Of a DNA stretch of 64,000 bases, positions 44,631 through 62,203 are shown piece after piece. The notes under the pieces are model-generated. The model worked only from the letters and a program-made list of their open reading frames with translations. It had not been told where the DNA came from and made no database searches. The DNA lies in the NCBI RefSeq assembly GCF_000620865.1, contig NZ_KK211190.1, positions 2,584,914 through 2,648,913 on the forward strand, in the 5' to 3' direction. Origin of the DNA: Exiguobacterium sibiricum 7-3. Its GTDB lineage: Bacteria > Bacillota > Bacilli > Exiguobacteriales > Exiguobacteriaceae. The number at the start of each line of letters is the position of its first letter. Position 1 is the stretch's first letter. A program made the translations under genes and the position numbers.

Positions 44631-45149
44631 ATGAATATCCCGTACCGCGATATCTCCCCAAGCTTAGCAGCACATGTTTTTGTCGCCCCCGGTGCTTTTT
44701 TGATCGGTGACGTGACAGTCGGCGAAGAATCGACGATTTGGTTCAATGCCGTCCTGCGTGGTGATGAAGGTCCGATTACAATCGGCAAACGTTGCAGTAT
44801 CCAGGATAATGCGACCATCCATCTCTACGAAGGTGCACCGGTCATTGTCGAAGATGAAGTGACGGTTGGTCACAATGCCATCTTGCACGGTTGTAAAATC
44901 GGTCGTCGCTCGATTGTCGGTATGGGGGCCACTGTTCTCGATCATGCTGAAATCGGGGAAGAATGTATCATCGGTGCCAACACATTAATCCCGTCCGGCA
45001 AAAAATTCCCGCCTCGTTCGCTCATCATCGGATCACCGGGCAAGGTCGTGCGTGAACTCACGGCAGCGGACCTCGAGATGATTCAAGAATCCATCGATTC
45101 ATATGTCGATAAAGGATACGCTTTCCGGAAACAACTTGCCGAGAATTGA
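44631..45149 (+). CDS. Gamma-carbonic-anhydrase fold protein (PaaY/YtoA-like)
   Basis: 172 residues of left-handed beta-helix hexapeptide repeats with RGDEGPITIG, His in IHLYEG and the VGHNAILHGCKIG zinc block, plus a C-terminal helix. Resembles YrdA/YtoA and PaaY; PaaY is a thioesterase/carnitine-like hydrolase acting on dead-end ring-hydroxylated CoA esters in phenylacetate catabolism. Its position beside paaX, convergent with it, makes a PaaY role plausible, but the family is also found outside paa clusters. Confidence 0.83.
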   Translation: MNIPYRDISPSLAAHVFVAPGAFLIGDVTVGEESTIWFNAVLRGDEGPITIGKRCSIQDNATIHLYEGAPVIVEDEVTVGHNAILHGCKIGRRSIVGMGATVLDHAEIGEECIIGANTLIPSGKKFPPRSLIIGSPGKVVRELTAADLEMIQESIDSYVDKGYAFRKQLAEN

Positions 45150-45159
45150 TTCCCGGCAT

Positions 45160-45198
45160 AAAAACGCTCATCTCGCTTCTTCGGGATGAGCGTTTTTG
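45160..45198. terminator. Bidirectional terminator
   Basis: AAAAACGCTCATC pairs with GATGAGCGTTTTT, between converging PaaY-like and paaX genes. Confidence 0.92.
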
Positions 45199-45199
45199 T

Positions 45200-46084
45200 T
45201 TATCGTTCTGCGAATAACGGATGTTCCGATGCATCATAATCAGCACTTTTTTGGGTCACATCATGTGTTTCACGGAAGATGGATTCAAAAAACCGACTCG
45301 CCGGTTCTGCGAGCAAGCGGTAGTATTGTTCAAACAATAAGGCCGCATGATGACCGCTCCACTCATCCGGTAACAACTCTTGCGGCAGACCGGGATCGGT
45401 GAATAAAAATTTCCGGTATTCATGGACAAGGGTCGTCCGTTCGACAAAACACTGCTCCTCGTCCATCTCGCCAAGCTGAATCCGGCTTTGATGGACGATA
45501 TAACGCCGGCTGTATTCGGCGATGAACCGTTCATACCGTTCTTGCAGTTCGTCCAGGGGAAAAGCGCGTTCGACCAGCGATTGATCCGGTTGCGGTCCAT
45601 GGTATTCGCCGACGAAAAAATCGACATACTCGGTGATACCGTAGGCGTCAATCAACCGTTCCGCTTCTTTTTCAAGAGGGTTCGGTGAAATCCAGACGCC
45701 GTTCGATAAATTACCGAAACCACTCCACGACAACTCTTTCCGTAATTCATCGCGGATTTGCCGTTTGTCTTCCGGAATTGTATACATCAAGGTCCGCCAT
45801 TTTCCGTCCCAGACATGAGGCGTCGACTTGTAGATTCGTCGAGCGGCTTCTTCCATCCGCTCGACACCACGCGGGGTCAACGAATAAAAACTTTTCGTCC
45901 CTTGTTTTTGTGACGTCAACCAACCTTGTTTGACCATCCGGGAAACGGCAACCCGGACAGCCTGTTCATTATGGCCGAATTCTTTGAGCAGACGAATCAG
46001 ACTGCCGACCCAGATTTGATTGCCGTAATGACGGATGTAATCTCCGTATACTGTAAAAATCATCGATTGTGTATTCGCACTCAT
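45200..46084 (-). CDS. paaX: PaaX family transcriptional repressor
   Basis: 294 residues. N-terminal winged helix starting SMIFTVYGDYIRHYG with the DNA-binding stretch NEQAVRVAVSRMVKQGWL, central PaaX domain (KRQIRDELRKELSWSGFGNLSNGVWISP) and C-terminal ferredoxin-like part ending FESIFRE. PaaX represses paa genes until phenylacetyl-CoA binds. ATG at 46084 chosen; a GTG at 46093 is an alternative. Downstream of paaF after a 76-base gap, possibly with its own promoter. Confidence 0.93.
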   Translation of the reverse strand: MSANTQSMIFTVYGDYIRHYGNQIWVGSLIRLLKEFGHNEQAVRVAVSRMVKQGWLTSQKQGTKSFYSLTPRGVERMEEAARRIYKSTPHVWDGKWRTLMYTIPEDKRQIRDELRKELSWSGFGNLSNGVWISPNPLEKEAERLIDAYGITEYVDFFVGEYHGPQPDQSLVERAFPLDELQERYERFIAEYSRRYIVHQSRIQLGEMDEEQCFVERTTLVHEYRKFLFTDPGLPQELLPDEWSGHHAALLFEQYYRLLAEPASRFFESIFRETHDVTQKSADYDASEHPLFAER

Positions 46085-46160
46085 GTCATTCACTCTCTCT
46101 TTAATATAACGTTTTTTTGTGTACCGTTAGTATACGTGTTATTTCAGAAGACGACCATCC

Positions 46161-46931
46161 TCATTTCCCTTGAAACTGCGGTGTCCGTTTTTCAGCGAAG
46201 GCACGTAACGCCTCCAACCGGTCTTCTGTCGGGATGACCACTTCGTAAGCCGTCGTCTCAATTTCCAATCCTTCCGCGAGCGTATGATCCAGTCCTTGAT
46301 CAATCGCCATTTTCGCCTGCCGGATCGCGACCGGTCCGTTTTGTAGCATCTCGTCAGCGAAAGCCAGACAGACTTCCATCAATTCTTCCCCCGTCGAGAC
46401 GACACGCGAGACGATTCCATACTGTTCAGCGGTCTCCGCATCAATTTTCTTAGCGGTGAAAATCAATTCCTTCGCCCGGGTCTCTCCAATCAACCGCGGC
46501 AACCGTTGCGTCCCGCCGGCACCGGGAATGATGCCGAAGCTCGTTTCTGTCAATCCGACCAGTGCGCCTTTGACGATCACCCGGAAATCACAGGCGAGCA
46601 TCCATTCGAAGCCGCCACCGAGCGCATGACCATTGACCGCAGCAATCGTCGGTTGCGGAAGACGCGCGATATCGGTGAAGACGTCACGAATCGCTTCAAC
46701 GTTTCGTCGTACTTCCGTTTCGTTTAACGTCATCCGTTCCTTCAAGTCAGCACCGGCGCTGAACGCCTTACCTGTTCCGGTAAAGACGGCAACCCGGATA
46801 GTCGGATCGTGACGGACAGTCGTGACCAGCTGTTGCAGCTCGACCAGCGTCGGATAATCAAAACAATTCATCCGTTCCGGCCGGTCAATCCGAATGATGG
46901 CGACATAGCCCACTCGTTCCAAATGAATCAT
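46161..46931 (-). CDS. paaF: 2,3-dehydroadipyl-CoA hydratase (enoyl-CoA hydratase)
   Basis: 256 residues, crotonase fold. Oxyanion-hole loops AFSAGADLKER and ALGGGFEWMLACDF, catalytic Glu in TETSFGIIPGAGGTQRL (both Glu positions of the hydratase loop present). As the last enzyme gene of the paa operon it should hydrate 2,3-dehydroadipyl-CoA. ATGA overlap with paaJ sets the start at 46931, GGGAGGG upstream. Confidence 0.88.
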   Translation of the reverse strand: MIHLERVGYVAIIRIDRPERMNCFDYPTLVELQQLVTTVRHDPTIRVAVFTGTGKAFSAGADLKERMTLNETEVRRNVEAIRDVFTDIARLPQPTIAAVNGHALGGGFEWMLACDFRVIVKGALVGLTETSFGIIPGAGGTQRLPRLIGETRAKELIFTAKKIDAETAEQYGIVSRVVSTGEELMEVCLAFADEMLQNGPVAIRQAKMAIDQGLDHTLAEGLEIETTAYEVVIPTEDRLEALRAFAEKRTPQFQGK

Positions 46932-48136
46932 GCGAGTCCCTCCCGTTCGACCACGAGAGCAATGCCTTGTCCGACCCCGACACACATCGTCGCGAGACCA
47001 TATGTCTGATTCGTACGGCACATCTCGTGGATTAATGTCGTTAAAATCCGTGCCCCGCTTGCGCCCAGTGGATGACCAAACGCGATGGCTCCTCCGTTGA
47101 CGTTGACTTTTTCCGGCGGTAATCCGAGTTCTTTCATACAGGCGACACTTTGTGCTGCAAAGGCTTCGTTGAGTTCAATCAAATCCAGTTGCTCCATCGT
47201 CAATTTTGCTCGTTCCAGCGCTTTCCGCGTCGCATCGACTGGTCCGATTCCCATGACAGCGGGTTCGACGCCGGCAACGGCACTGGCCCGATAATAGGCA
47301 AGCGGCGTCAATCCGAGACGTTCCGCCGTTTCTTCACTCATCAATAACAAGGCGGCTGCCCCATCGTTGACACCGGAAGCATTTCCTGCCGTGACGGTGC
47401 CATTCGGAAACAGGCTTTTGAGCGTTCCGAGTTTTTCCCGGCTGGTGTCGGGACGCGGGTGCTCATCCGTATTAACTTCGACGATTTGCCCTTTTCGTGT
47501 CGTATACTGCACCGGAATAAGTTCGGTTTGAAAACGATGTGTCTCCATCGCCTGTTTGGCCCGTTGCTGACTCAAATAGGCAAAATCATCCTGTGCTTCC
47601 CGAGAAATCCCGTAACGGACGGCGACATGTTCCGCCGTCTCCGGCATCGAGTCCGTTCCGTATTTGGCATTTAGTTTTTCATTGACGAATCGCCAGCCAA
47701 TCGTTGTGTCATAGATCGTCGTGTTCCCGCGGGCGAAACCCGTTTCCGTTTTTCCCATGACGAGCGGTGCCCGGGTCATGCTTTCCGTTCCGCCGGCAAT
47801 ATAGATGTCCCCTTCGTTCATCGCGATTGCCCGGGCCGCCGCAATGACGGCATCAAGTCCGGAACCGCACAGCCGGTTGACCGTTGTTCCGGCGACTTCG
47901 ACCGGTAGACCGGCAAGCAAGCCGGACATCCGGGCGACATTCCGGTTGTCTTCCCCTGCTTGATTGGCATTTCCAAAAATCACTTCTTCGATTTGCTTCG
48001 GATCGACATCCGGATTCCGGTCAATGAGCGCTTGAATGACACATGCCCCTAAATCATCCGGACGGACATCTTTCAAGGCTCCGTTATACCGGCCAATCGG
48101 TGTACGGACGGCATCAATGATCGCCACACGTCTCAT
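46928..48136 (-). CDS. paaJ: 3-oxoadipyl-CoA/3-oxo-5,6-dehydrosuberyl-CoA thiolase
   Basis: 402 residues, thiolase family. Nucleophile Cys90 in NRLCGSGL, His in GHPLGASGARI near 358 and second Cys in CVGVGQG near 388. The length (about 400) and SLFPNGTVTAGNASGVNDGAAA region fit PaaJ/PcaF. Produces acetyl-CoA and succinyl-CoA at the end of the pathway. Overlaps paaH and paaF by 4 bases each. Confidence 0.9.
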   Translation of the reverse strand: MRRVAIIDAVRTPIGRYNGALKDVRPDDLGACVIQALIDRNPDVDPKQIEEVIFGNANQAGEDNRNVARMSGLLAGLPVEVAGTTVNRLCGSGLDAVIAAARAIAMNEGDIYIAGGTESMTRAPLVMGKTETGFARGNTTIYDTTIGWRFVNEKLNAKYGTDSMPETAEHVAVRYGISREAQDDFAYLSQQRAKQAMETHRFQTELIPVQYTTRKGQIVEVNTDEHPRPDTSREKLGTLKSLFPNGTVTAGNASGVNDGAAALLLMSEETAERLGLTPLAYYRASAVAGVEPAVMGIGPVDATRKALERAKLTMEQLDLIELNEAFAAQSVACMKELGLPPEKVNVNGGAIAFGHPLGASGARILTTLIHEMCRTNQTYGLATMCVGVGQGIALVVEREGLA

Positions 48137-49005
48137 CGTGTCTTCACCCCGCTGTCGGAATACTCATAGACACCGCGCCCAGTTTTCCGTCCGAGACGTC
48201 CTGCTTTGACATACTGTTCAAGCAGTGGTGCCGGACGATATTTTTCACCCAGTTTTTCATGAAGATAACGCAAATTGTTGAGACGGGTATCGAGCCCGAC
48301 AAGATCGCCAAGTTCAAACGGTCCCATCGGATAGTTCAGTCCGAGCTTGATCGCTTTATCGATTTCTTCCGGTGTTCCGAGTCCTTCCTGTAACATATAA
48401 AAAGCCTCGTTTCCGACGAGTGCACTGATTCGTGACGTGACGAACCCGGGAAACTCCTTGATGACGACCGTCTCTTTCCCCATTTGTTGCGCAACGGTTT
48501 CGCATATCATTACCGTTTCGTCAGATGTTTCAAGACCCCGTACCAGTTCGACGAGTGGCATCCGATGCACCGGATTAAAGAAGTGCATCGCCATGACCCG
48601 TTCCGGACGCTTCGTAAAGGATGCAATCTCGGTCGGACTCATCGTCGACGTATTGGTCGCAAAAACACAATCGGCCGGCGCAGAGCGGTCCAGTGTCTCA
48701 AACACTGTCCGTTTGATCTCGAGCCGTTCCGGAACGGCCTCAATCACAAGATCCGCTCCTTTGGCAGCTTCCCCTAAATCCGTTGCATAACGTAAACGCC
48801 CGAACAGTTGCTCGACTTCTTCCGTCGTCATTTTCCCGCGGATGATGGCTTTATCGGCAATTCTTTCTAATTCCTGTTGCGCGGACGTCAGCAACTGTTG
48901 CTCGACGTCCACCAATGTCACGTCAAATCCGCTCGCCGCTGCCACGTAAGCAATTCCTCTTCCCATGACCCCCGACCCTACGACAACCATCTGTTGAACC
49001 ATCAT
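48133..49005 (-). CDS. paaH: 3-hydroxyadipyl-CoA dehydrogenase
   Basis: 290 residues, HBD-type. Rossmann GSGVMGRG (10-17), catalytic His in MHFFNPVHRMPLVE and the C-terminal domain with PMGPFELGDLVGLDTRLNNL. NAD-dependent oxidation of 3-hydroxyadipyl-CoA. GGGGG precedes the ATG and lies immediately after the terminator hairpin of the upstream gene. Confidence 0.9.
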   Translation of the reverse strand: MMVQQMVVVGSGVMGRGIAYVAAASGFDVTLVDVEQQLLTSAQQELERIADKAIIRGKMTTEEVEQLFGRLRYATDLGEAAKGADLVIEAVPERLEIKRTVFETLDRSAPADCVFATNTSTMSPTEIASFTKRPERVMAMHFFNPVHRMPLVELVRGLETSDETVMICETVAQQMGKETVVIKEFPGFVTSRISALVGNEAFYMLQEGLGTPEEIDKAIKLGLNYPMGPFELGDLVGLDTRLNNLRYLHEKLGEKYRPAPLLEQYVKAGRLGRKTGRGVYEYSDSGVKTR

Positions 49006-49021
49006 CTGATTTTCCCCCTTT

Positions 49022-49056
49022 AAAAAAGCGTGCGGACGAACGTCCGCACGCTTGGT
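49022..49056 (-). terminator. Internal terminator between aldehyde dehydrogenase and paaH
   Basis: Minus strand: AAGCGTGCGGAC-GTTC-GTCCGCACGCTT then TTTT, directly before the paaH Shine-Dalgarno. A perfect GC-rich stem in mid-operon. Confidence 0.85.
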
Positions 49057-49058
49057 TT

Positions 49059-50567
49059 TTACAGTCCGAACGGATTAAGTGGACGACTGCCGTAATACGA
49101 CAGGATACTTTTCGTTTCCGTATATAAATCAAGTGTTTCGATACACAGTTCACGACCGAAACCAGATTGTTTGTATCCGCCAAACGGTGTTCCCGGGAAG
49201 GCCGAAAATGGACAGTTGATCATGACGATACCGGCTTTGATTTGATTGGCAATCCGTGTCGCGCGTGCCCCGTCTTTTGTCCAAATCGCTGACCCGAGCC
49301 CGAATTCCGTATCGTTCGCAAGACGGACAGCTTCTTTTTCATCCTTGAACTTCATCACGACGACGACCGGTCCGAAGATTTCTTCCTGGACAACTTTCAT
49401 CTCGTGTGTGACATCGGCAATGATGGTTGGTGCATACCAGAAACCTTCTTCAAAACCGGCTACTTTCTCGACTTGACCCCCAGTCAAAATCGTTGCCCCG
49501 TCCGCTTTCGCCGACTGGACATAGCCGTCGATGACATCGAGCTGTTGTTGATCGATGATTGCCCCGACGTGTGTGCCCTTGTCAAATGGATTCCCGAGCA
49601 CCAGTTGTTTCGTTTTTGCGACGAATTGTTCCATGAACGTTTCGTAAATATCTTCATGGACGTACAGGCGCGACCGCGCTTCACACGACTGACCACTGTT
49701 GTAAAAGATGCCGAACAGCGAACCGTCGACAGCTGCCGTGATATCGGCATCCTCAAACACGAGGTTCGGTGATTTGCCGCCGAGTTCCAATGTGACGCGT
49801 TTTAAGCTTTCCGATGCCCGCCCCATGATGTCTTTTCCGACTGGTGTCGAACCGGTAAAGGCGACTTTATCGACATTCGGGTGTTCCACCAAGTGGTTGC
49901 CGATTTCGCGGCCCGATCCCGGAATGACGTTGACGACACCCGCCGGTACACCGGCTTCCAGACAAATCTCGCCAAGGATAATGGCTGTCAAAGGTGTCAG
50001 GGTCGCCGGTTTAACGACGACCGAACAACCGACCGCAATCGCTGGTGCGACTTTCCAAGCCGCCATCATCAACGGATAGTTCCACGGAATGATTTGGGCG
50101 CAGACGCCGACCGGTTCTTTTTCTGTGTAGTTATGGAACTGCCCCGGCACATTATTGACGGTACCACGGTGACCGACGATCGCACCGGCATAAAATTCAA
50201 AGTCTTCAATTGCTTGCGTGATTTGCCCTTGTGCTGCGGCAAGTGATTTTCCCGTATCGAGAATCTCGAGTTCCACGAGTTCATTGAATCGTGAACGCAT
50301 GATGCCGGCGATTTTGTTCAAAACTTGCGCCCGGCGACCGACCGGCCACATTTTCCATTTCCCGTGATCAAACGCTTCTCGTGCCGCCTGTACCGCACGA
50401 TCGGCATCGGCTTTTGAAGCTTTCGCGACTTCCGCAATGACTTCGCCCGTTGCCGGATTATAGGTCTTGAATGTCTCCCCTGATGCCCCTTCGACTTGCT
50501 CGCCGTTGATGACCAGATGATAAACGGAACGTTTCATCTCGATTGTTTTTTCATGTACCGTTGACAT
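49059..50567 (-). CDS. NAD-dependent aldehyde dehydrogenase (paa cluster)
   Basis: 502 residues, ALDH superfamily. Glu262 (TLELGGKSP) and catalytic Cys295 (NSGQSCEA) are present. No hydratase domain is attached, unlike PaaZ. Candidate roles: 3-oxo-5,6-dehydrosuberyl-CoA semialdehyde dehydrogenase (the PaaZ oxidation half, as PacL-type proteins) or phenylacetaldehyde dehydrogenase. The position inside the paa operon favours the first. Start at 50567 with AAGGAG upstream. Confidence 0.85.
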   Translation of the reverse strand: MSTVHEKTIEMKRSVYHLVINGEQVEGASGETFKTYNPATGEVIAEVAKASKADADRAVQAAREAFDHGKWKMWPVGRRAQVLNKIAGIMRSRFNELVELEILDTGKSLAAAQGQITQAIEDFEFYAGAIVGHRGTVNNVPGQFHNYTEKEPVGVCAQIIPWNYPLMMAAWKVAPAIAVGCSVVVKPATLTPLTAIILGEICLEAGVPAGVVNVIPGSGREIGNHLVEHPNVDKVAFTGSTPVGKDIMGRASESLKRVTLELGGKSPNLVFEDADITAAVDGSLFGIFYNSGQSCEARSRLYVHEDIYETFMEQFVAKTKQLVLGNPFDKGTHVGAIIDQQQLDVIDGYVQSAKADGATILTGGQVEKVAGFEEGFWYAPTIIADVTHEMKVVQEEIFGPVVVVMKFKDEKEAVRLANDTEFGLGSAIWTKDGARATRIANQIKAGIVMINCPFSAFPGTPFGGYKQSGFGRELCIETLDLYTETKSILSYYGSRPLNPFGL

Positions 50568-50581
50568 AGCTCCCACTCCTT

Positions 50582-51358
50582 TTAGTTTCCTTTGAATGTC
50601 GGTTGACGTTTGTCTAGAAAGGCTTGCATACCTTCCGTCTGATCACTCGTGCCGAATAGTAAGTAGAAATTTCTTCGTTCATGGTCCATGCCGTCTTGCA
50701 GTGACAGATCGCCTGCCTTATCGACGGCATCTTTGATCAGTCGCACGGACATCACGGGTTGTGCCGCAATCCGTCCGGCAACCGCCAAAACGTCTGCTTC
50801 GAGTTGGTCCGCTTCCACGATCCGGTTGATGATTCCGAGATGGTGTGCTTCCGACGCCGGCATCCGGTCCCCCGTCCACAACCACTCGAGTGCCCGGGTC
50901 CGCCCGATCCGTTTCGTCAATCGTTGGGTCCCGCCAGCTCCCGGCATGACACCGAGTCCAACCTCCGGAAACGCGAACTGGGTCTCGGGTGTCGCATAGA
51001 TCAAGTCGCAGGCCAGGGCCAGTTCAAATCCGCCGCCGAGTACAAATCCGTGGACAGCTGCAATCAGCGGTTTATGCAGCCGGCTGATCCGGTCCCAATC
51101 AGCAAACGGATCAAGAAGTTCCATCGAAATCGGTGTCGCGTCGACCATCTCATCGATGTCTGCTCCGGCTGAAAAGGACTTTCCTTCACCGTTCAGGACG
51201 ATGACTGCGACCGCCTCATCCTGATCGAATCGTTCCATCGCTTCGACGATTTCCCGAATCATCGTCCGGTTCAGGGCATTGTAACGTTCCGGCCGATTCA
51301 GTCGAATCCGGCCGATTCGCCCCTCGATACTTGTCTTAACGTACTGTGGCGTCGGCAT
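50582..51358 (-). CDS. paaG: Enoyl-CoA hydratase/isomerase (PaaG-like)
   Basis: 258 residues, crotonase fold with SFSAGADIDEM and VLGGGFELALACDL oxyanion loops and PEVGLGVMPGAGGTQRL. In PaaG this fold isomerises ring-1,2-epoxyphenylacetyl-CoA to oxepin-CoA. This protein keeps the Glu-like PEVG loop of hydratases, so hydratase activity is possible too. Start at 51358; overlaps the EthD gene by 23 bases. Confidence 0.85.
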   Translation of the reverse strand: MPTPQYVKTSIEGRIGRIRLNRPERYNALNRTMIREIVEAMERFDQDEAVAVIVLNGEGKSFSAGADIDEMVDATPISMELLDPFADWDRISRLHKPLIAAVHGFVLGGGFELALACDLIYATPETQFAFPEVGLGVMPGAGGTQRLTKRIGRTRALEWLWTGDRMPASEAHHLGIINRIVEADQLEADVLAVAGRIAAQPVMSVRLIKDAVDKAGDLSLQDGMDHERRNFYLLFGTSDQTEGMQAFLDKRQPTFKGN

Positions 51359-51659: not shown

Positions 51660-51674
51660 GATGATTACCTTCCT

Positions 51675-52169: not shown

Positions 52170-52183
52170 CTGCCGTTCCCCCT

Positions 52184-53310: not shown

Positions 53311-53323
53311 GGTGGTTCCTCCT

Positions 53324-54295: not shown

Positions 54296-54312
54296 GTCAG
54301 TTCCTCCTCTGC

Positions 54313-55608
54313 TTAAACAAACTTCTTCTCAGACTCTGTGCGACGGTCAATGATCCGGACGGCCTTGCCTTCAGACCGCGGAAGTCCATATGGCGGGTGA
54401 CAAATCAGATCCACTGATATCAGACATTCTGTTTTCATGGCATGGCAGATGACCCGCTTAATATCTTCAGCAACTGTCCCCACTTCGAGCTCGATGTGCA
54501 ATTCCAGTGCTTCAAGCCCGGCCCGTTGAATCCGGTGAATTTGATAGTGCGGTGTGACACCCGGTTGTTGCAGCAACACCCGTTCAATCTCGGACGGGAA
54601 GACATTGACGCCACGGATGATCATCATGTCATCCGTCCGCCCTTTGACCCGCGACATCCGGGTCGTCGTCCGGCCGCAGCCACATACTTTTGTTGTGACG
54701 GATGCCAAGTCTCCGGTACGATACCGAATTATTGGAAGCGCTTTCTTTTTTAAACTTGTAAAAACGAGTTCCCCGACCATTCCTTCTGGTAGCGGTTCCC
54801 CCGTTACGGGATCAATGACTTCTGTGATGAACAAATCATCCATCAGATGCAATCCGTCCTGTTCCTGACACTCCATCGCGACACCGGGCCCCATGATTTC
54901 GCTAAGACCGTAGATGTCAAACGCCCGGATCCCCCACTTGTCTTCGAGGGTTTGCCGTAATTCTTCCGACCACGGCTCGGCTCCGAAAATCCCGTACTGC
55001 AGGCTGCTCGTCTTCGGATTTAGACCCTTTTCTTCCATCCGTTCCGCGAGATGCAACATATAAGAAGGTGTTCCGCAAATTCCACGCGGCTGAAAATCTT
55101 CGATCAATGTGATCTGTCGGTCCGTATTGCCGCCGGACACGGGGACAATCGTCATGCCGAGTTGTTCGGCTCCGCTGTGCAGACCCAGTCCGCCGGTGAA
55201 TAATCCGTAACCGTAAGCATTGTGCAACAAGTCGGTTTTTTGCGCGCCGATGGCGACCAGACCACGTGCGACAGCTTTCGACCAATCATCCAGATCGCTT
55301 TGTGTATAACCGACGACGGTTGGCTTTCCGCTTGTTCCGGAGGAAGCATGGATCCGGACCGCTTCCTGTGGCGGAACCGCAAACAAGCCAAATGGATACT
55401 GTTCCCGCAAATCACTTTTGTATGTGAACGGTAACTTTTGAATATCCGCCATCGTTTGTAATGCATCCGGATCGAGCCCCCGTTCCATGAAGCGGGTCTG
55501 ATAAAACGGAACATGTTCCATCACATGACGAACGGTCTCACGTAAACTTGCAAGCTGTAAGCGGGATCGTTCTTCCGCTTCCATCGTTTCCAGGATTTCG
55601 TTATACAA
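54313..55608 (-). CDS. paaK: Phenylacetate-CoA ligase
   Basis: 431 residues, AMP-forming adenylating family. Phosphate loop ASSGTSGKPT (about 88-97), YGLSEIMGPG, YRTGDL and RVKGRTDDMMIIRGVNVFP. Activates phenylacetate with ATP and CoA. Start is TTG at 55606-55608, with AAGGGG 5 bases upstream; no ATG in the right place. First gene of the leftward paa operon. Confidence 0.95.
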   Translation of the reverse strand: MYNEILETMEAEERSRLQLASLRETVRHVMEHVPFYQTRFMERGLDPDALQTMADIQKLPFTYKSDLREQYPFGLFAVPPQEAVRIHASSGTSGKPTVVGYTQSDLDDWSKAVARGLVAIGAQKTDLLHNAYGYGLFTGGLGLHSGAEQLGMTIVPVSGGNTDRQITLIEDFQPRGICGTPSYMLHLAERMEEKGLNPKTSSLQYGIFGAEPWSEELRQTLEDKWGIRAFDIYGLSEIMGPGVAMECQEQDGLHLMDDLFITEVIDPVTGEPLPEGMVGELVFTSLKKKALPIIRYRTGDLASVTTKVCGCGRTTTRMSRVKGRTDDMMIIRGVNVFPSEIERVLLQQPGVTPHYQIHRIQRAGLEALELHIELEVGTVAEDIKRVICHAMKTECLISVDLICHPPYGLPRSEGKAVRIIDRRTESEKKFV

Positions 55609-55645
55609 GTGGCACCCCTTCCCGCGTCTATATAACACAATAAAT

Positions 55646-55657
55646 AAACGTTCGTTT
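55646..55657. promoter_or_regulatory. Operator candidate AAACG-TT-CGTTT in paaK leader
   Basis: Perfect inverted half-sites AAACG/CGTTT, between the paaK promoter and start. The core AACG-N2-CGTT equals the centre of the CNAACGNNCGTTNG site recalled for the TetR-type repressor PaaR of Thermus thermophilus; the outer C and G are not matched. Confidence 0.5.
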
Positions 55658-55664
55658 TAAAATG

Positions 55665-55704
55665 GTTATATCATTAAACTACGATACGTTCACAATGTTG
55701 TCAA
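55665..55704 (-). promoter_or_regulatory. Promoter region of paaK operon
   Basis: Minus strand: TTGACA at 55699-55704, 17-bp spacer, TAGTTT at 55676-55681. A second -10-like TATAAC lies at 55665-55670 without a good -35. Confidence 0.45.
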
Positions 55705-55856
55705 TCCTTCATTTTGTTAAAAGCTCCCAACTTTCTTGATACTGGTCCTTATTTCTATCAAAAGTCTGAATAAAGACCCTTCCTATAGAGAAAGTCAGAA
55801 AACGATATTTCTTTTTGGAAAATATTCCTGAAAATGTTTGCTCATTTTGTAACTGA

Positions 55857-55885
55857 TTGATAAAATATCGTGTGACAAGTGTTAT
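55857..55885 (+). promoter_or_regulatory. Promoter candidate of the phenylalanine dehydrogenase operon
   Basis: TTGATA at 55857-55862, 17-bp spacer, TGTTAT at 55880-55885; TATACT nearby (55884-55889) has a 21-bp spacer. GACCA-GCTG-TGGTC (55900-55913), just downstream, is an inverted repeat that may be an operator. Confidence 0.4.
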
Positions 55886-55933
55886 ACTATTTTTGGTAAG
55901 ACCAGCTGTGGTCACAGGCAAGGGGGAATTGGT

Positions 55934-56329
55934 GTGAAAAACGGTTTATCGCTCGGAGATTCTGCTGTCATCGAAGCGATCGTAACAGAAGAAATGTTCG
56001 CTCAGTTTGAAGGTGTGGTTGTCCATCCGGCCTATTCAACCGTATCGATGGTCTATCATATGGAATGGGCCGCTCGAAAACTCATCCTCCCCTACCTGGA
56101 AGAAGAGGAAGAAGGAGTCGGTGGTGCAGTTTCCTTGAAACATTTAGGAATGGCAACACTTGGATCAAACATCCGGATCGAAGCCACCGTCATCGAACTC
56201 ACACCTGACCGCGTATTGGCAAAAGTAGAAGTCAGACACGGCGACCGTGTCATCGGTCTCGGGGAAGTCAAACAAATCATCTTAACTAAGCAGCTGATTC
56301 AGGACAAGTTAATGCCGCGTGTTTTCTAA
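55934..56329 (+). CDS. Hotdog-fold thioesterase (FlK-like)
   Basis: 131 residues, GTG start with AAGGGGG. The fold matches fluoroacetyl-CoA-type hotdog thioesterases (VVHPAYSTVSMVYHMEWAARKLILPYLEEEEEG; catalytic Thr/His region; GLGEVKQIILTK end). As first gene of the Phe operon it could release CoA from stalled aromatic acyl-CoA, as PaaI does in other clusters, though the sequence is a different subfamily. Confidence 0.82.
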   Translation: MKNGLSLGDSAVIEAIVTEEMFAQFEGVVVHPAYSTVSMVYHMEWAARKLILPYLEEEEEGVGGAVSLKHLGMATLGSNIRIEATVIELTPDRVLAKVEVRHGDRVIGLGEVKQIILTKQLIQDKLMPRVF

Positions 56330-56374
56330 AGATTAAAATGAAAGCGCTTACTATACGTCAGGAGGATGTTTACT

Positions 56375-57517
56375 ATGAATATGTTGAACCCATCCACGGA
56401 TCCATCACCATCAATCATGGAGAAAATTTCCGGTCACGAACAAGTCGTTTTTTGTAACGATCCGGTGTCCGGTTTGCAGGCGATCATCGCCATTCACGAT
56501 ACGACACTCGGACCCGCCCTAGGTGGTTGCCGAATGGCACCGTATTCGACTGTCGACGAAGCACTCGATGATGTCTTGCGGCTGTCACGTGGCATGACGT
56601 ATAAATGTGCAGCAGCTGACGTCGATTTCGGCGGCGGGAAAGCCGTCATCATCGGTAATCCGGCGACGGATAAAACACCCGAATTGTTCCGGGCCTTCGG
56701 ACGCTTCGTCGACTCACTCGGCGGACGTTTCTATACCGGGACGGACATGGGCACGACGATGGACGATTTCGTCCATGCCAGCCGGGAAACGTCACGGATC
56801 GTCGGAATTCCGGAAGCCTTCGGCGGTAGTGGGGATTCATCAATTCCTACGGCGGAAGGCGTCATTTACGGATTACGGGCAACGGTCGAAACGTTATACG
56901 GATCGGATGATTTAAGCCGGGCCAGTTACGCTGTCCAAGGACTGGGAAAGGTCGGCTATAAAGTCGCAGAACAGTTATTGTCTGCCGGTGCCAACCTGTA
57001 CGTGTCCGATTTGAGCGAATCCGTTCTCGCTTCTCTCGTCGAGCAAGCGGAAAAAACACCTGGAACGGTTCGTGTCATTTCCGCTCATGAAATTCATCTG
57101 ACGGATGCCGACATCTTTGTCCCTTGTGCCTATGGTGGTGTCATCCAATCGACGAACATCGGACAGCTCCAGTGTAAGGCAATCTGTGGATCGGCCAACA
57201 ATCAACTCGCCGACGATGCACTTGCGCTCGAATTAAAGCAACGCGGCATTTTATATGCGCCCGATTATATCGTCAACGGTGGCGGTCTGATTCAAGTTGC
57301 CGACGAATTATACGGTGCGAATCATGAACGTGTCTTATTAAAAACAAAACATATCTATGATGCGGTCCTCGAAGTATTCCACGAGTCTCATGCGGAATCG
57401 ATCACGACACTCGAAGCAGCCAATCGGATGTGTAACAAACGGATTCAAATCCGCTCTCGTCATAACAACATCTTTACGAATACAATCAAACCGAAATGGA
57501 ACATCCGTAACGACTAA
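56375..57517 (+). CDS. pdh: Phenylalanine dehydrogenase
   Basis: 380 residues, Glu/Leu/Phe/Val dehydrogenase family. [54 protein letters not shown] (Lys77, Lys89), [18 protein letters not shown] (Asp124), [18 protein letters not shown] and a C-terminal RPKWNI-like end (KPKWNI) match phenylalanine dehydrogenases far better than leucine dehydrogenases. NAD-dependent deamination of phenylalanine to phenylpyruvate. Cys in GGCRM replaces the usual Thr. Start at 56375 uses AGGAGG 9 bases upstream. Confidence 0.88.
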
Positions 57518-57531
57518 TGGAGGTGACACTG

Positions 57532-58584
57532 ATGGAAACTGAATTTCCGATTTACCGGATCCTTGATGATGCGGGACACGTGATCGATACATCTAAAACC
57601 GACTCGCTGACAAAAGACTTGAGCCTCGCGCTATTCACACATATGAACCGGATCCGGACGTTTGACCGGAAGGCGATCAATCTGCAACGTCAAGGACGGC
57701 TCGGTACCTATGCTCCGTTCGAAGGACAGGAAGCGGCACAGGTCGGCAGTGCGTATGCGCTGCAGGACAAAGACTGGGTCTTCCCGACCTACCGGGATCA
57801 CGGGGCGACGCTGACGTTTGGCGCCGATATGGTCCGGACGTTTTTGTATTGGAATGGCCGCGTCGAAGGCTGTGTCCCGACCGATGAGCTGCATATCTTC
57901 CCACCCGCTGTTCCGATTGCCACACAAATCCCGCATGCCGTTGGTGCGGCCTGGGCGGAAAAACGAAAAGGATCGACCCAAGTCGCTGTCGCTTACTTCG
58001 GCGATGGGGCAACATCGGAAGGTGATTTCCACGAAGGCATGAACTTTGCCAGCGTCTTCCAGGCTCCGGTCATCTTGTTTAATCAAAACAACGGGTATGC
58101 GATTTCCGTCCCGATTCAAAAACAGATGCATTCGGAAACGATTGCTCAAAAAGCATTAGCTTATGGTATGCCGAGCGTCCGGATTGACGGGAATGACGTT
58201 TTCGCCGTCTACTTAACGATGCAAAAGGCACTTGAAAGAGCCCGCTCCGGCGGCGGTCCGACCTTAATCGAAGCGGTCACATGGCGATTCGGTGCCCACA
58301 CGACAGCGGATGATCCATCGAAATACCGGGATCAGGAACGCTCCCGGGACCGGATTGATCCCCTCACCCGCCTGGAAGATTTCATGAAAGAACAGGGATT
58401 CTATGACGAGCAGGAAATCGAAGCAATCCGGACCCGTCATCAAGAAGAGGTCGAAGCCGCCGTCAAAACAATGGAAGCCTTCCCGCCTCCTGACGTCAAT
58501 GATTTATTCGACCATACGTACGCAACATTACCGGACGATTTAGTCCGTCAAAAAACGGACTATCTGACCGCAAGGGGGAATTGA
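57532..58584 (+). CDS. 2-oxoacid dehydrogenase E1 alpha subunit (phenylpyruvate-type, inferred)
   Basis: 350 residues. FEGQEAAQVGSAYAL, the ThDP motif GDGATSEGDFHEGMNFASVFQAPVILFNQNN (GDG 157-159, NN 186-187) and the phosphorylation-loop-like RFGAHTTADDPSKYR. Similar to branched-chain BkdAA and PdhA. Placed between phenylalanine dehydrogenase and E1 beta, so phenylpyruvate is the likely substrate. GGAGGTGA upstream. Confidence 0.88.
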   Translation: METEFPIYRILDDAGHVIDTSKTDSLTKDLSLALFTHMNRIRTFDRKAINLQRQGRLGTYAPFEGQEAAQVGSAYALQDKDWVFPTYRDHGATLTFGADMVRTFLYWNGRVEGCVPTDELHIFPPAVPIATQIPHAVGAAWAEKRKGSTQVAVAYFGDGATSEGDFHEGMNFASVFQAPVILFNQNNGYAISVPIQKQMHSETIAQKALAYGMPSVRIDGNDVFAVYLTMQKALERARSGGGPTLIEAVTWRFGAHTTADDPSKYRDQERSRDRIDPLTRLEDFMKEQGFYDEQEIEAIRTRHQEEVEAAVKTMEAFPPPDVNDLFDHTYATLPDDLVRQKTDYLTARGN

Positions 58585-58585
58585 C

Positions 58586-59584
58586 ATGGCGACACCTATC
58601 AATCGACAAACGGAGATGACGCTCGTCCAGGCTGTCACCGATGCCTTACGGACAAAACTGACGGACGATGAGACGACGCTTGTACTAGGCGAGGATGTCG
58701 GAAAAAACGGTGGTGTCTTTCGGGCAACGGACGGTCTACAGGAAGAGTTCGGTGAGGACCGGATCATTGATACGCCGCTGAGCGAAGCGGGAATCGTCGG
58801 AACGTCGATCGGTCTCGCGGTCAACGGGTTTAAGCCGATCGTCGAAATCCAATTTCTCGGTTTCATCTACCCTGCTTACGAACAAATCATGACCCACGTC
58901 TCCCGCATCCGGATGCGGACGATGGGGCGTTACGGCGTGCCGATGGTCATTCGGGCGCCTTATGGGGCCGGCATTCGGGCGCCGGAAATTCACTCGGACA
59001 GTACGGAAGCCCTCTTCACCTCGATGCCCGGCTTAAAGGTCGTCTGTCCGGCAACGCCTTACGACGCCAAAGGCTTATTGATTGCAGCGATTGAAGATCC
59101 GGACCCGGTCTTATTCCTCGAATCGATGCGCAGTTACCGCGCCTTTAAGGAACCGGTTCCGAGTGAGGCGTACACGGTTGAAATCGGCAAAGCCAAATGC
59201 GTCACGGAAGGTCACGACGTGACACTCATCGCCTGGGGGGCGATGGTGCAGGTTGCCCAAAAAGCAGCGACCGAAGCAACGACACGCGGTATCTCCTGTG
59301 AAGTGATTGATTTACGGACACTTTATCCGCTTGACCGGACGACGATTGCCGCCTCCATCCAAAAAACAGGTCGGGCTGTCATCGTTCATGAAGCACAGGC
59401 AACGGGTGGACTCGGGAATGATTTGATTGCTTTAATCAATGATACTTCGTTCTTGTATTTACGGGCACCGATTGCTCGGGTCACCGGATTCGATGTGCCG
59501 GTTCCATTATTCGCGCTCGAAGACCATTACATCCCGACGCCGACTCGTGTGCTTGAAGCGATCCAGCGTACGATCGATTTTTAA
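58586..59584 (+). CDS. 2-oxoacid dehydrogenase E1 beta subunit
   Basis: 332 residues. GEDVGKNGGVFRATDGLQEEFGEDRIIDTPLSEAGIVG is the E1 beta signature, with HSDSTEALFTSMPGLKVVCPATPYDAKGLL and HEAQATGGLGNDL further on. Separated from E1 alpha by one base after the stop, AAGGGGG upstream. Forms the alpha2beta2 decarboxylase with E1 alpha. Confidence 0.92.
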   Translation: MATPINRQTEMTLVQAVTDALRTKLTDDETTLVLGEDVGKNGGVFRATDGLQEEFGEDRIIDTPLSEAGIVGTSIGLAVNGFKPIVEIQFLGFIYPAYEQIMTHVSRIRMRTMGRYGVPMVIRAPYGAGIRAPEIHSDSTEALFTSMPGLKVVCPATPYDAKGLLIAAIEDPDPVLFLESMRSYRAFKEPVPSEAYTVEIGKAKCVTEGHDVTLIAWGAMVQVAQKAATEATTRGISCEVIDLRTLYPLDRTTIAASIQKTGRAVIVHEAQATGGLGNDLIALINDTSFLYLRAPIARVTGFDVPVPLFALEDHYIPTPTRVLEAIQRTIDF

Positions 59585-59596
59585 GGAGTGAGCAGG

Positions 59597-60802
59597 ATGA
59601 TTGAAGTGAAATTGCATGATGTGGGGGAAGGCATGACGGAAGGTGAAATCGCAAACTATCTGGTCCAAGTCGGCGATCGGGTCACAATTGACCAACCGGT
59701 CGTCGAAGTCTCGACTGACAAGATGGTCGCCGAATTGCCGGCTCCGGTGTCCGGGGTCGTCACGGATCTGTTAATTCCTGTCGGACAAACGGTTGGCGTC
59801 GGGACAGTCTTGTTATTGATCGAGGCAACGGAAGCACAACCGGCAGTCACCGTTGAACGAACGGTTGAACGGTCCGAGCAATCGCAACAACAACCAACCA
59901 TGACCACTCTCCTGACGGAACGTCCAAAACGTGTGTTGGCGACACCTTACACCCGGAAAATTGCCCGCGATCTTGGCATCGATCTGGAACTAGTTCCGGC
60001 TGTCGATCCGTCCGGTCGCGTCACGGAAGAAGATGTACGTCGTTTCGTTGAAAGCGGAACGACTCCTGAGCCCGATCAGCGTCCAGTCGCGGTCGAGGCA
60101 CCACCTGCGCCGGTCGATACGATTCCGTTCCGGGGCATTCGTAAACAGATCGCCAAAAAGATGACCCAGTCACTCTTTACGATTCCGCATGTCACCCACT
60201 TTGAAGAAGTTGACATGACCCGTTTGCTGGCATTGCGCGAAGAATTGAAAGCTGCCGGGAAACCGATCAGCGTCAACGCTTTTTTCATCAAAGCCTTGAT
60301 CGTCGCCTTACAAGACTTCCCGGTCTTCAACGCCAAGCTCGATGAAGCAAACGAACAGATTATTTTGGAGCGGCAGTACCATATCGGTGTCGCGACTGAA
60401 ACGACCGACGGATTGATCGTGCCGGTTGTCCGGGACGCCGACCAACTGACGATGCAACAGTTGCATACGCGTGTCGCGGAACTGTCTTCCCGCGCTAAGA
60501 CGGGAGACTTGCGCGCTGCGGATCTGAAACCAAGCACCTTTACGATGAGTAATGTCGGACCACTCGGCAGTACAGGCGCAACGCCGATCATCAATTATCC
60601 GGAAACGGCGCTGATCGCCTTCCACAAAACGAAAAAACGGGTCTGTGTCGACGACCAGGATCAAATTGTCATCCGCTCGATGATGAATCTGTCGATGTCC
60701 TTTGATCATCGTGTGGCGGACGGCGCGACCGCCGTCGCCTTTACGAACCGGTTTGCCGGACTGATCGAACACCCCACTACTTTATTGATGGAGTTGATCT
60801 AA
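59597..60802 (+). CDS. 2-oxoacid dehydrogenase E2 acyltransferase
   Basis: 401 residues. One lipoyl domain with Lys42 in STDKMVAE, a flexible Gln/Pro-rich linker, a peripheral subunit-binding domain (TPYTRKIARDLGIDLELVPAVDPSGRVTEEDV, about 112-150) and a catalytic core with His371/Asp375 in FDHRVADGA. Transfers the acyl group to CoA; here expected to make phenylacetyl-CoA. Start at 59597 with AAGGAG upstream. Confidence 0.93.
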   Translation: MIEVKLHDVGEGMTEGEIANYLVQVGDRVTIDQPVVEVSTDKMVAELPAPVSGVVTDLLIPVGQTVGVGTVLLLIEATEAQPAVTVERTVERSEQSQQQPTMTTLLTERPKRVLATPYTRKIARDLGIDLELVPAVDPSGRVTEEDVRRFVESGTTPEPDQRPVAVEAPPAPVDTIPFRGIRKQIAKKMTQSLFTIPHVTHFEEVDMTRLLALREELKAAGKPISVNAFFIKALIVALQDFPVFNAKLDEANEQIILERQYHIGVATETTDGLIVPVVRDADQLTMQQLHTRVAELSSRAKTGDLRAADLKPSTFTMSNVGPLGSTGATPIINYPETALIAFHKTKKRVCVDDQDQIVIRSMMNLSMSFDHRVADGATAVAFTNRFAGLIEHPTTLLMELI

Positions 60803-62203
60803 ATGGTTGTTGGTGAACTGACCCAAGAACGTGATCTGTTGATTCTCGGCGGCGGTCCGGCCGGCTATACAGCTGCGATTCGCGCCAGTCAATTGGGACG
60901 AAAAGTGACCTTAATTGAACAAGCACAGCTCGGAGGGCTTTGTCTGAACAAAGGCTGTATCCCGTCCAAAGTTGTCGCGCATGCGGCGGAAGTGAAACAA
61001 CAAATGAACCATTTGACTGCACTCGGTTTTTCGATCGAACCGACGCATGACTTCAACCAATTGGTAAAGTACCGGGACGGGATCGTCCATCAGTTACGCG
61101 CCGGCGTCGAAGCTTTATGCCAGGCAAACGCCATCGAATACATCCAAGGGACCGCCTCGTTCTTGGCGGACGACCGGATCGGTGTCGAACAGGGACATCA
61201 GTTCGACACGTACCGGTTCAATGATGTCGTGATCGCAACTGGAAGCCATAGTCTTCAGCAGACGTCCCCTCTCATCTTAAATGCAGAACAACTCTACCAG
61301 CTGACCGACTTGCCGGACCGGCTCGTCATCATCGGTCAGGACTATATCACGATTGAAGCAGCAATGAGTTTTCAGGCACTCGGCACACAAGTCACATTGA
61401 TCGCCGACGCGTTTCAGCTCGATCCGAGCCTCGACAAAGAACTGCGGCGGCTCTTTAAAAAACAAAAAATCCGACTCGTAACGGGCATCGTGACCGCCAT
61501 CGAGACAACGGATGAAGTGACGGTCACCGTCGTCAAAGAAGGACAGGAAACGACCTGGACCGCTCCATTTTTATTCCACTCGTTACCACGGATTCCAAAC
61601 ACACTGGAGTTGGGTCTCGAACGCATCGGTGTGACGATGGCAGAAGACGGCACGATTCCTGTCGATCCGTTCGGGCAAACGAGCCGGCCCCATATTTATG
61701 CGCTTGGTGACGTTACACCCGGTCCGCCACTGGCAATCCGGGCCATTCATGAAGCCAAACGAACCGCCGAACAGTTGGCAGGACAATCCCCTGATCCGAC
61801 GATGCCCTATTATCCAACGGTCATCCGCTCCCTTCCACCGATCGTCTCGATCGGATTGACGGAGCAAGCGGCGACGGATGCCGGTTATGCCGTCCGGGTT
61901 GGTCAATTCGCCTTAAACGCCAATGGTGCAACGACGATTGAAGCCGGCAGTGGATTTGTCAAAGTCGTCACGGATGCCACGACGAGTCTGTTATTAGGTG
62001 TTCATATGATTGGCGAAGGATCGATTGAACTCGCCGGCACCTTTGCCCAAGCGCTTGAAATGGCGGCCAAGGAAGAAGATATCCGTTTCCCGGTCATGCC
62101 GCATCCGAGCCGGAATGAAGCCTGGACGGAAGCCATCGAATCTTTGGTTGGACAAGCTATCCACTTATCCCCCCGGCAACAAGCTATCTTGACGAAGTCG
62201 TAA
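60803..62203 (+). CDS. Dihydrolipoamide dehydrogenase E3 with altered NAD motif
   Basis: 466 residues. FAD motif GGGPAGYTAA (16-25), redox disulfide Cys47/Cys52 in CLNKGCIPSK, ALGDV FAD motif, and C-terminal His434/Glu439 (HPSRNEAW). The NAD-binding Rossmann loop is GQDYIT (178-183) instead of the usual GGGYIG, losing two glycines. Starts right after the E2 stop. It may still work, use another cofactor or be non-catalytic; a second E3 elsewhere in the genome is expected. Confidence 0.9.
   Translation: MVVGELTQERDLLILGGGPAGYTAAIRASQLGRKVTLIEQAQLGGLCLNKGCIPSKVVAHAAEVKQQMNHLTALGFSIEPTHDFNQLVKYRDGIVHQLRAGVEALCQANAIEYIQGTASFLADDRIGVEQGHQFDTYRFNDVVIATGSHSLQQTSPLILNAEQLYQLTDLPDRLVIIGQDYITIEAAMSFQALGTQVTLIADAFQLDPSLDKELRRLFKKQKIRLVTGIVTAIETTDEVTVTVVKEGQETTWTAPFLFHSLPRIPNTLELGLERIGVTMAEDGTIPVDPFGQTSRPHIYALGDVTPGPPLAIRAIHEAKRTAEQLAGQSPDPTMPYYPTVIRSLPPIVSIGLTEQAATDAGYAVRVGQFALNANGATTIEAGSGFVKVVTDATTSLLLGVHMIGEGSIELAGTFAQALEMAAKEEDIRFPVMPHPSRNEAWTEAIESLVGQAIHLSPRQQAILTKS

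Follow-up and report, generated by a model that had tools for sequence, protein, structure and literature searches.

Ferredoxin-dependent aryl pyruvate oxidoreductases convert 2-oxoacids directly into acyl-CoA without the formation of a free acid, and are ferredoxin-linked iron-sulfur enzymes, unlike the complexes that work with lipoyl groups and NAD. For PglB/PglC of Streptomyces pristinaespiralis, a pyruvate dehydrogenase (PDH)-like E1, the available parts of two publications propose the conversion of phenylpyruvate into phenylacetyl-CoA (PMC7089894, PMC10685826). This system resembles the complex described here in its PDH-like E1 and in its proposed reaction, but it is biosynthetic, directed to phenylglycine for pristinamycin, and the paa pathway of S. 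pristinaespiralis competes for its product; moreover, the gene table available for it holds only E1 alpha and beta, whereas E2 and E3 are also encoded here. A paa cluster with the same gene order as ours, EthD included and with a thioesterase gene nearby, is found in the available text on Exiguobacterium sp. RIT 594, a study of polystyrene and styrene in whose main text "phenylpyruvate" does not occur and "phenylalanine" occurs once, in the reference list (PMC9416434).

The window (the whole stretch of 64,000 nucleotides analysed, from Exiguobacterium sibiricum 7-3) had been described in a first-pass annotation as carrying, at 44631-62203, a divergent locus of phenylalanine dehydrogenase (PheDH), 2-oxoacid dehydrogenase and paa genes. 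Open reading frames and family matches agree with that description (Table 1). All the genes named there are present; the FlK gene, the EthD gene and the fact that PF00171 is the sole domain of the 505-aa aldehyde dehydrogenase (ALDH) had been overlooked. The plus-strand set (55934-62203), divergent from the paa operon, comprises the genes of an FlK-type thioesterase, PheDH and, encoded together, all four parts of a 2-oxoacid dehydrogenase complex (E1alpha, E1beta, lipoyl E2 and FAD/NAD E3), with intergenic gaps of at most 36 bases, so that a single operon is likely. On the minus strand, the paaABCD epoxidase genes together with paaX identify a paa pathway. The ALDH, having only PF00171, lacks the hydratase domain of the two-domain PaaZ (hydratase plus aldehyde dehydrogenase), and a PaaE reductase was not found among the locus genes scanned by family search.

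Table 1. Features of the divergent PheDH/2-oxoacid dehydrogenase/paa locus (positions in the window)
Feature	Position	Strand	Evidence
PaaY/gamma-carbonic-anhydrase-like hexapeptide protein	44631..45149	+	NF050158 201.4 of 250 bits, TIGR02287 137.8 of 319.6 bits, both under cut-off
paaX repressor	45200..46093	-	TIGR02277 320.1 vs 264.55 bits
Lower paa: ECH (PaaG-like), ALDH, 3-hydroxyacyl-CoA dehydrogenase, thiolase, ECH (PaaF-like)	46161..51373	-	Family matches
EthD-family protein	51336..51659	-	TIGR02118 108.8 vs 30.5 bits
paaA-B-C-D, phenylacetyl-CoA epoxidase subunits	51675..54295	-	TIGR02156, 02157, 02158, 02159 above curated cut-offs
paaK, phenylacetate-CoA ligase	54313..55638	-	AMP-binding domains; TIGR02155 564.2 bits, under cut-off 646.3
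Divergent promoter region, conserved blocks	55639..55933	.	Comparison of 19 congeners
Acyl-CoA thioesterase of FlK (hotdog) type, heading the operon	55934..56329	+	PF22636 109 bits
Phenylalanine dehydrogenase (Glu/Leu/Phe/Val dehydrogenase)	56366..57517	+	ELFV domains above cut-off (PF02812 98.4 bits, PF00208 69.9 bits); Gly125 and Leu308
E1alpha of proposed phenylpyruvate dehydrogenase	57517..58584	+	PF00676; TIGR03181 above cut-off
E1beta	58586..59584	+	PF02779, PF02780
E2 acyltransferase: one lipoyl, one E3-binding, one catalytic domain	59588..60802	+	PF00364, PF02817, PF00198
E3 dihydrolipoyl dehydrogenase	60803..62203	+	PF07992, PF02852; TIGR01350 368.2 bits, under cut-off 408.8

Judging from the sequence, it is highly probable that the plus-strand operon encodes a catabolic phenylpyruvate dehydrogenase route leading from phenylalanine to phenylacetyl-CoA without PaaK. 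PheDH would convert phenylalanine into phenylpyruvate with formation of NADH. Using CoA and NAD+, the E1alpha-E1beta-E2-E3 complex would decarboxylate phenylpyruvate oxidatively, releasing CO2 and forming phenylacetyl-CoA and a second NADH. Ring opening of phenylacetyl-CoA by PaaABCD and the lower paa enzymes would then yield TCA intermediates. Phenylacetaldehyde, free phenylacetate and the ATP cost of PaaK would thus be avoided, and PaaK would be left with free phenylacetate only. What the sequences show directly is which genes are present, their order and conservation, the PheDH-type letters of the pocket, and the loss of paaK in strains that retain the complex; we infer phenylpyruvate as the substrate of E1, and likewise the coupling to paa and a co-regulation by PaaX or phenylacetyl-CoA. 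In favour of the route we count the presence of a third complex in the genome, the matched PheDH pockets, the co-occurrence and linkage with paa, the loss of paaK in some strains and the precedent of PglB/PglC. The direct step to phenylacetyl-CoA advanced in the first-pass annotation is supported by these observations as regards pocket, third complex, paa pairing and paaK loss, and it is in the substrate that it is still conjectural.

The Ala and Val of leucine dehydrogenases are replaced by Gly125 and Leu308 in the amino acid dehydrogenase of the window. In the part of PMC8543943 available, the pocket of Bacillus badius PheDH is given as L50, G51, G52, M75, F86, G123, V144, L306, V309 and L313, with K78, K90, D125 and N276 as catalytic residues. 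The window protein has the same letters at 14 of these 14 positions with a constant offset of +2, itself inferred from the listed residues; at the offset positions the pocket string reads LGGMKFKGDVNLVL in the window and LGGMKLKADTNVVL in the leucine dehydrogenase of the same genome. The enzyme is accordingly predicted from its pocket to be of the PheDH type (EC 1.4.1.20), forming phenylpyruvate, NADH and NH3 from L-Phe, which bears out the identity previously given to it. A survey of 80 named records, corresponding to 82 dehydrogenase genes (35 of them without a qualifying E1 in view), rendered Gly125 in all 34 dehydrogenases located beside an E1 of this type and Ala in all 13 beside a BCKDH-type E1.

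The E1alpha gene lies 2.1-4.4 kb from paaA in all 19 Exiguobacterium genomes, and neither paaA nor a third E1alpha was found in any of 19 genomes of the sister genus, an association that exceeds chance. The layout, for which the first-pass annotation knew of no described counterpart in Exiguobacterium, is not peculiar to this genus. The synteny comparison proposed there as a check shows that the E1alpha/PheDH/paa pairing recurs across Bacilli: a PheDH-type gene is located within 5 kb of E1alpha in 61 of the 66 genomes outside the genus that have one (17 families). In a set of 398 Bacilli genomes, 125 of the 144 with paaA and 12 of the other 254 have a close E1alpha (E<=1e-105), the threshold having been picked once the scores were known and genomes of the same family not being independent. 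Outside the genus, E1 and paa are no more than 35 kb from each other in 34 of 106 pairs, where a rough estimate for a random position gives about 2, and E1 is within 6 kb of PaaK in 6 of the 12 genomes in which the position of PaaK was compared.

Some observations count against the proposed route: 72 of those 106 pairs are unlinked within 35 kb, a close E1 is present in six genomes lacking paa, and three genomes with paaA and PheDH-type genes (G049, G194 and G204) have no E1 at E<=1e-84. A ferredoxin oxidoreductase that might substitute for E1 in G049 and G204 was not found among ten proteins of the stretches available (L063, L046), which stop short of the PheDH genes. Stop marks in E1alpha of four genomes of family f3 were not taken as decay; in the one that is readable (L130; also L157) the mark is at residue 5, before the likely start.

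In three of the 19 congeners paaK is not intact: E. flavidum has none, in G004 the gene is split by that of an IS30-family transposase, and in G012 it has an internal deletion. The genes for FlK, PheDH and E1-E3 are complete in all 19, these three included. On the other hand, PaaK is complete in 16 of the 19, which also counts against the route; the bypass of PaaK that had been suggested would therefore apply to phenylalanine, and PaaK can still take free phenylacetate. No match to PaaK at E<=0.001 was found in G388, a one-contig genome with E1 at 4 kb from paaA; PaaK is, however, also missing from genomes in which E1 is unlinked or absent, so that its absence is a weak mark of E1 linkage. G003 and eight sister strains show apparent stops in PaaK. 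These do not indicate decay, since on the window protein they are at residues 5 and 6, ahead of the HMM match, and none lies inside it; a later start probably accounts for them.

It seems likely that most paa-bearing Bacilli have a dedicated and widely misnamed catabolic phenylpyruvate dehydrogenase that joins phenylalanine directly to the opening of the ring, in many cases together with a matched PheDH; in species lacking paaK it would be the sole entry into paa. If so, Bacilli commonly degrade phenylalanine by a route that is hidden under the label "pyruvate dehydrogenase", the feeding of paa in species without PaaK is explained, ATP is saved and two NADH are gained up to phenylacetyl-CoA, the antibiotic-linked PglB/PglC step has a catabolic counterpart, and an enzyme becomes available for phenylacetyl-CoA production from phenylalanine.

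The complex is additional to the PDH and BCKDH of the genome, its E1alpha being 38-41% identical to theirs. The canonical leucine dehydrogenase-bkd operon (L011), on the same contig at ca. 0.55 Mb from paa, likewise joins an amino acid dehydrogenase to E1alpha, E1beta, E2 and E3, but has a leucine-type pocket (Ala/Val) and an E1alpha of another clade. In a midpoint-rooted FastTree, E1alpha proteins of the window type (n=81) and of the bkd type (n=14) occupy separate branches (node support 0.726), so that the window E1alpha is outside the group of bkd-linked proteins. That the operon happens to carry, alongside paa, another 2-oxoacid dehydrogenase of branched-chain or broad range, with phenylpyruvate processed via phenylacetaldehyde and PaaK, is thus unlikely: a BCKDH operon already exists, the partner dehydrogenase has a PheDH pocket, and some genomes keep paa and the complex without paaK. 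Such a role would be consistent with the close relationship of PheDH and leucine dehydrogenase in sequence comparisons, with the retention of PaaK in most congeners, and with a TPP-family protein of 553 aa in Exiguobacterium that could be a 2-oxoacid decarboxylase. The latter, as well as a phenylalanine-hydroxylase homologue present in Exiguobacterium, we count against the phenylpyruvate dehydrogenase route.

Residue 64 of E1alpha is Thr in 81 of 81 window-type and Phe in 14 of 14 BCKDH-type proteins, and aligns with Thermus Phe66, which we take to have a role in the pocket. As a mark of specificity for phenylpyruvate it was dropped, since Thr64 is shared by three relatives, haloarchaeal or from Paraburkholderia, around which no paa genes are annotated over 10-14 kb.

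An extra PDH induced during aromatic catabolism is a very improbable identity for the complex, in spite of the match of E1alpha to the PDH model TIGR03181 (468.9 bits against a cut-off of 411.35), which we count against a phenylpyruvate substrate and on which the canonical PDH E1alpha of the genome scores no higher (455.7 bits), and of its closest solved relatives being Bacillus-type PDH. E1beta and E2 are under the cut-offs of their models. A separate E1alpha-E1beta-E2-E3 operon (L012) with an E1alpha above the PDH cut-off encodes PDH, so that the window complex is not the cell's sole or principal PDH, and the pairing with a PheDH-type enzyme extends over many families. Other aromatic 2-oxoacids, for instance indolepyruvate or 4-hydroxyphenylpyruvate, are hardly credible as the true substrate: tryptophan dehydrogenase ScyB is the top NCBIfam match of the dehydrogenase, but its 350.9 bits fall short of the cut-off of 600, the pocket has the letters given for PheDH, and the adjoining pathway degrades phenylacetyl-CoA.

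In the divergent promoter region, TGGTAAGACCA (55894-55904) is identical in all 19 congeners, and the block at 55686-55704, though similar, varies. An operator common to Bacilli was discarded, T[GT]GTNNNAC[CA]A being found upstream of 20 of 73 loci, every one from Exiguobacterium; TGGTNNNACCA has 2 matches in the window, no more than chance. The paa neighbourhoods of 100 of the 125 paaA-bearing genomes outside the genus were covered. FlK occurs without an E1alpha match in 42 of these 100 stretches and is therefore not specific to the PheDH-E1 module; it is probably a CoA-releasing guard. EthD, with a match in 68 of the 100, is frequent in paa loci of Bacilli.

The divergent locus of an amino acid dehydrogenase, four subunits of a proposed phenylpyruvate dehydrogenase complex (E1alpha, E1beta, E2 and E3) and phenylacetate degradation (paa) genes described in the first-pass annotation was recovered in the 3.08-Mb genome by ORF calls and family matches. 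The inventory stood as described, except that the FlK hotdog thioesterase and the EthD-family protein had been overlooked, and that it had gone unremarked that the aldehyde dehydrogenase has no hydratase domain, as seen in a domain scan. No PaaE reductase was found among the scanned locus genes. The six plus-strand genes from FlK to E3 are separated by gaps of at most 36 bases, which suggests that they form one transcript. Since the hydratase domain of PaaZ is missing in the window, EthD may take over the opening or isomerisation of oxepin-CoA; EthD-family proteins are frequent in paa loci of Bacilli (68 of 100 class paaA stretches). A FabK/nitronate monooxygenase (NMO)-like protein is encoded at 43613-44548, with similar ones in L131, L135, L137, L151-L154 and other fetched loci, and in many paa loci this gene sits between paaX/paaY and FlK.

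Genes of the divergent locus, with positions in the window
Feature	Position	Strand	Basis
Minus-strand paa operon	from 55638 to 45200	-	ORF calls and family profile matches; gene order as in the following minus-strand rows
paaK, paaA, paaB, paaC, paaD	in order from 55638	-	family matches
EthD-family protein	51336-51659, after paaD	-	family match
Enoyl-CoA hydratase, then aldehyde dehydrogenase (505 aa)	after EthD	-	family matches
3-Hydroxyacyl-CoA dehydrogenase, thiolase, second enoyl-CoA hydratase	after aldehyde dehydrogenase	-	family matches
paaX	last of series, to 45200	-	family match
FlK-type thioesterase	from 55934, plus-strand operon	+	family match
ELFV amino acid dehydrogenase	after FlK	+	family match
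E1alpha, E1beta, E2, E3	in order, ending 62203	+	family matches
ogt	after E3, plus-strand series	+	gene call

Among solved relatives of the window dehydrogenase, mostly leucine dehydrogenases come first and phenylalanine dehydrogenases (PheDH) score lower, so that overall similarity is undecisive for the substrate class. Judged by its pocket, the enzyme is of the Phe type, in agreement with its original assignment. Alignments place Gly125 and Leu308 at sites where leucine dehydrogenases, including that of the bkd locus L011 of the same genome, have Ala and Val. All 14 residues in the pocket list for B. badius PheDH, as given in an excerpt of PMC8543943, agree with a constant offset of two, the comparison covering the listed positions and not the full sequence; among them are Phe88 and Val146, which are replaced by Leu and Thr in the leucine dehydrogenase of the same genome. 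The 42 PheDH-like sequences aligned from the window, the genus and the class loci, four of them second copies from the same genomes, all have Gly and Leu at the two sites. G322, G290 and one MAG each have two PheDH-type genes a short distance apart (L130, 5170-6306 and 6873-8018; L155); in G322 and the MAG the pair flanks FlK, and in the two double loci that were read one copy has Asn instead of Val146.

Three E1alpha genes, each some 346-363 codons long, are present in the window's genome. One, in L012, has its own E1beta, E2 and E3 and passes the pyruvate dehydrogenase (PDH) model; another, in L011, belongs to an operon ordered leucine-dehydrogenase-like gene, E3, E1alpha, E1beta, E2, which by its layout is of the branched-chain (bkd) type. 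The window E1alpha shares no more than 38-41% identity with these two, and exceeds the cut-off of the PDH E1alpha model about as clearly as the canonical PDH does. It is present in all 19 Exiguobacterium genomes, 2.1-4.4 kb from paaA; in the sister genus neither paaA nor this third E1alpha was found in any of 19 genomes. In the E1alpha tree 81 window-type sequences branch apart from 14 of bkd type (midpoint root, support 0.726), and the one PDH sequence included falls next to the window-type branch. The position corresponding to Phe66 of Thermus E1alpha, a residue lining the substrate pocket, holds Thr in 81/81 window-type sequences and Phe in 14/14 of bkd type and in the genome's PDH. Thr at this position is shared by two haloarchaeal relatives and one from Paraburkholderia, around which the annotation, itself incomplete, shows no paa genes within 10-14 kb; it thus marks a wider group and was rejected as a mark of phenylpyruvate use. 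On a Haloferax larsenii plasmid (L236, 12420-16923) genes for an aminotransferase, E1alpha, E1beta and EthD follow one another; this may be an archaeal variant of the arrangement in which a transaminase stands in for PheDH.

A class-wide search of 398 Bacilli genomes rendered 144 with PaaA over the cut-off and 9 more below it. The window E1alpha, searched in the same genomes, matched at E<=1e-105 in 125/144 paaA-positive genomes versus 12/254 others (6/245 if the weak PaaA matches are counted as positive), at 1e-84 in 131/144 versus 31/254, and at 1e-110 in 113/144 versus 7/254, the thresholds having been picked after the scores were seen and genomes within one family not being independent. 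Close E1alpha matches also occur in six paa-negative genomes, one of them 86% complete. Among the 106 non-genus paaA-positive genomes with an E1alpha position among the matches listed, the two genes lie within 35 kb on one contig in 34, farther apart on one contig in 22 and on different contigs in 50; by a rough estimate, random placement in a 4-Mb genome would give about 2 linked pairs. E1alpha lies within 6 kb of paaK in 6 of the 12 genomes compared for PaaK position, and inside 10 of 100 paaA neighbourhoods (up to 20 kb each; 125 possible). A PheDH-type gene was present in 16 of 20 E1alpha neighbourhoods, mostly chosen outside those paaA stretches, and in the other four there was none.

The synteny search suggested with the original proposal found the pair across Bacilli. 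PheDH was detected at E<=1e-110 in 85/398 genomes; of 66 outside the genus (59 paaA-positive over the cut-off, 4 weak, 3 negative), 61, from 17 families, have it within 5 kb of a listed E1alpha, with starts 1.0-1.2 kb apart in 56. Among the remaining five, G049, G194, G204 and G067 have no E1alpha at 1e-84, and G288 has one at 1.8e-99 that is not among the matches listed. In 80 named records, MAGs included, the order paaX-(paaY)-FabK/NMO-FlK-PheDH-E1alpha-E1beta-E2-E3 recurs, with single genes absent in some, in Fictibacillus, Sporosarcina, Rossellomorea, Priestia koreensis, Mesobacillus, Metabacillus, Heyndrickxia and others. Of their 82 dehydrogenases, all 34 whose neighbouring E1alpha shares 50% identity or more with that of the window carry Gly125, and all 13 that neighbour a BCKDH-type E1alpha (identity below 45%) carry Ala; 15 of the other 35, which have no qualifying E1 in view, also carry Gly125, so that the PheDH-type pocket occurs without a window-type E1 as well. 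Dehydrogenases from window-type E1 loci fall into a single clade with support 0.985, made up of 70 such tips and 6 others.

Every gene from FlK to E3 is complete in the window and also in each of the 18 other genomes of the genus, a complete gene being one matched over at least 90% of its length by a single stretch free of stops. For four pairs dN/dS was computed, and all values lie well below 1. The ATP-dependent ligase PaaK is complete in 16/19: it is absent from E. flavidum, short by about 65 residues in G012, and split in G004 by inserted DNA that encodes an IS30-family transposase (NF033563, 289 vs 80 bits). In a selected set of 58 genomes (the 19 of the genus, 10 with E1 in the paaA stretch, and 29 of 33 others without PaaK in that stretch), 16 had no PaaK match above 100 bits. 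Fourteen of these have E1alpha (E<=1e-98), in 10 cases no farther than 20 kb from paaA, which is no enrichment because 87% of paaA-positive genomes have E1 anyway; their weight lies in the persistence of paa with E1 and without PaaK. In the single-contig G388, E1 and paaA are 4 kb apart, and a PaaK search at E<=0.001 found nothing. That PaaK is expendable while the complex is kept is support, not proof, since another CoA ligase could replace PaaK. The other two of the 16, G049 and G204, have no close E1alpha match either. G049 is positive for paa and PheDH and has a lipoate-protein ligase gene directly upstream of paaA (L063, 10750-11739), hinting at a diverged lipoyl complex.

Phenylalanine would thus be converted to phenylpyruvate by PheDH, as its pocket supports, and phenylpyruvate to phenylacetyl-CoA by E1-E2-E3, as the pairing, the extra copy and the loss of paaK suggest; ring opening would follow by the known paa pathway, whose genes are present. 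FlK probably frees CoA from surplus or dead-end thioesters, and is not specific to the module, since FlK was matched without E1alpha in 42 of the 100 paaA stretches of the class. Against the phenylpyruvate reading count the complete PaaK in 16/19 congeners, the PDH model passed by E1alpha, the close E1alpha in six paa-negative genomes, and a phenylalanine-hydroxylase homologue (4/4 Exiguobacterium genomes tested, 0/3 other Bacilli). So does one of the TPP_enzyme_N proteins of Exiguobacterium genomes: one in the window's genome is acetolactate synthase, and another, of 553 aa, could be a 2-oxoacid decarboxylase. Excerpts of PMC7089894 and PMC10685826 describe PglB/PglC of the pristinamycin cluster as a PDH-like complex converting phenylpyruvate to phenylacetyl-CoA, and a paa cluster of Exiguobacterium sp. 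RIT 594 has already been published (excerpt of PMC9416434). A search of open-access full texts, subscription journals being mostly outside its scope, brought up no paper that links phenylalanine dehydrogenase with both a lipoyl 2-oxoacid dehydrogenase and paa.

Blocks of the divergent promoter region are conserved within the genus. No operator common to other genera was found in upstream regions of Bacilli loci, so that control of the locus by PaaX is plausible and unproven. Upstream of FlK, TGGTAAGACCA at 55894-55904 is present in 19/19 congeners, and has the FadR-like TGGTNNNACCA form.
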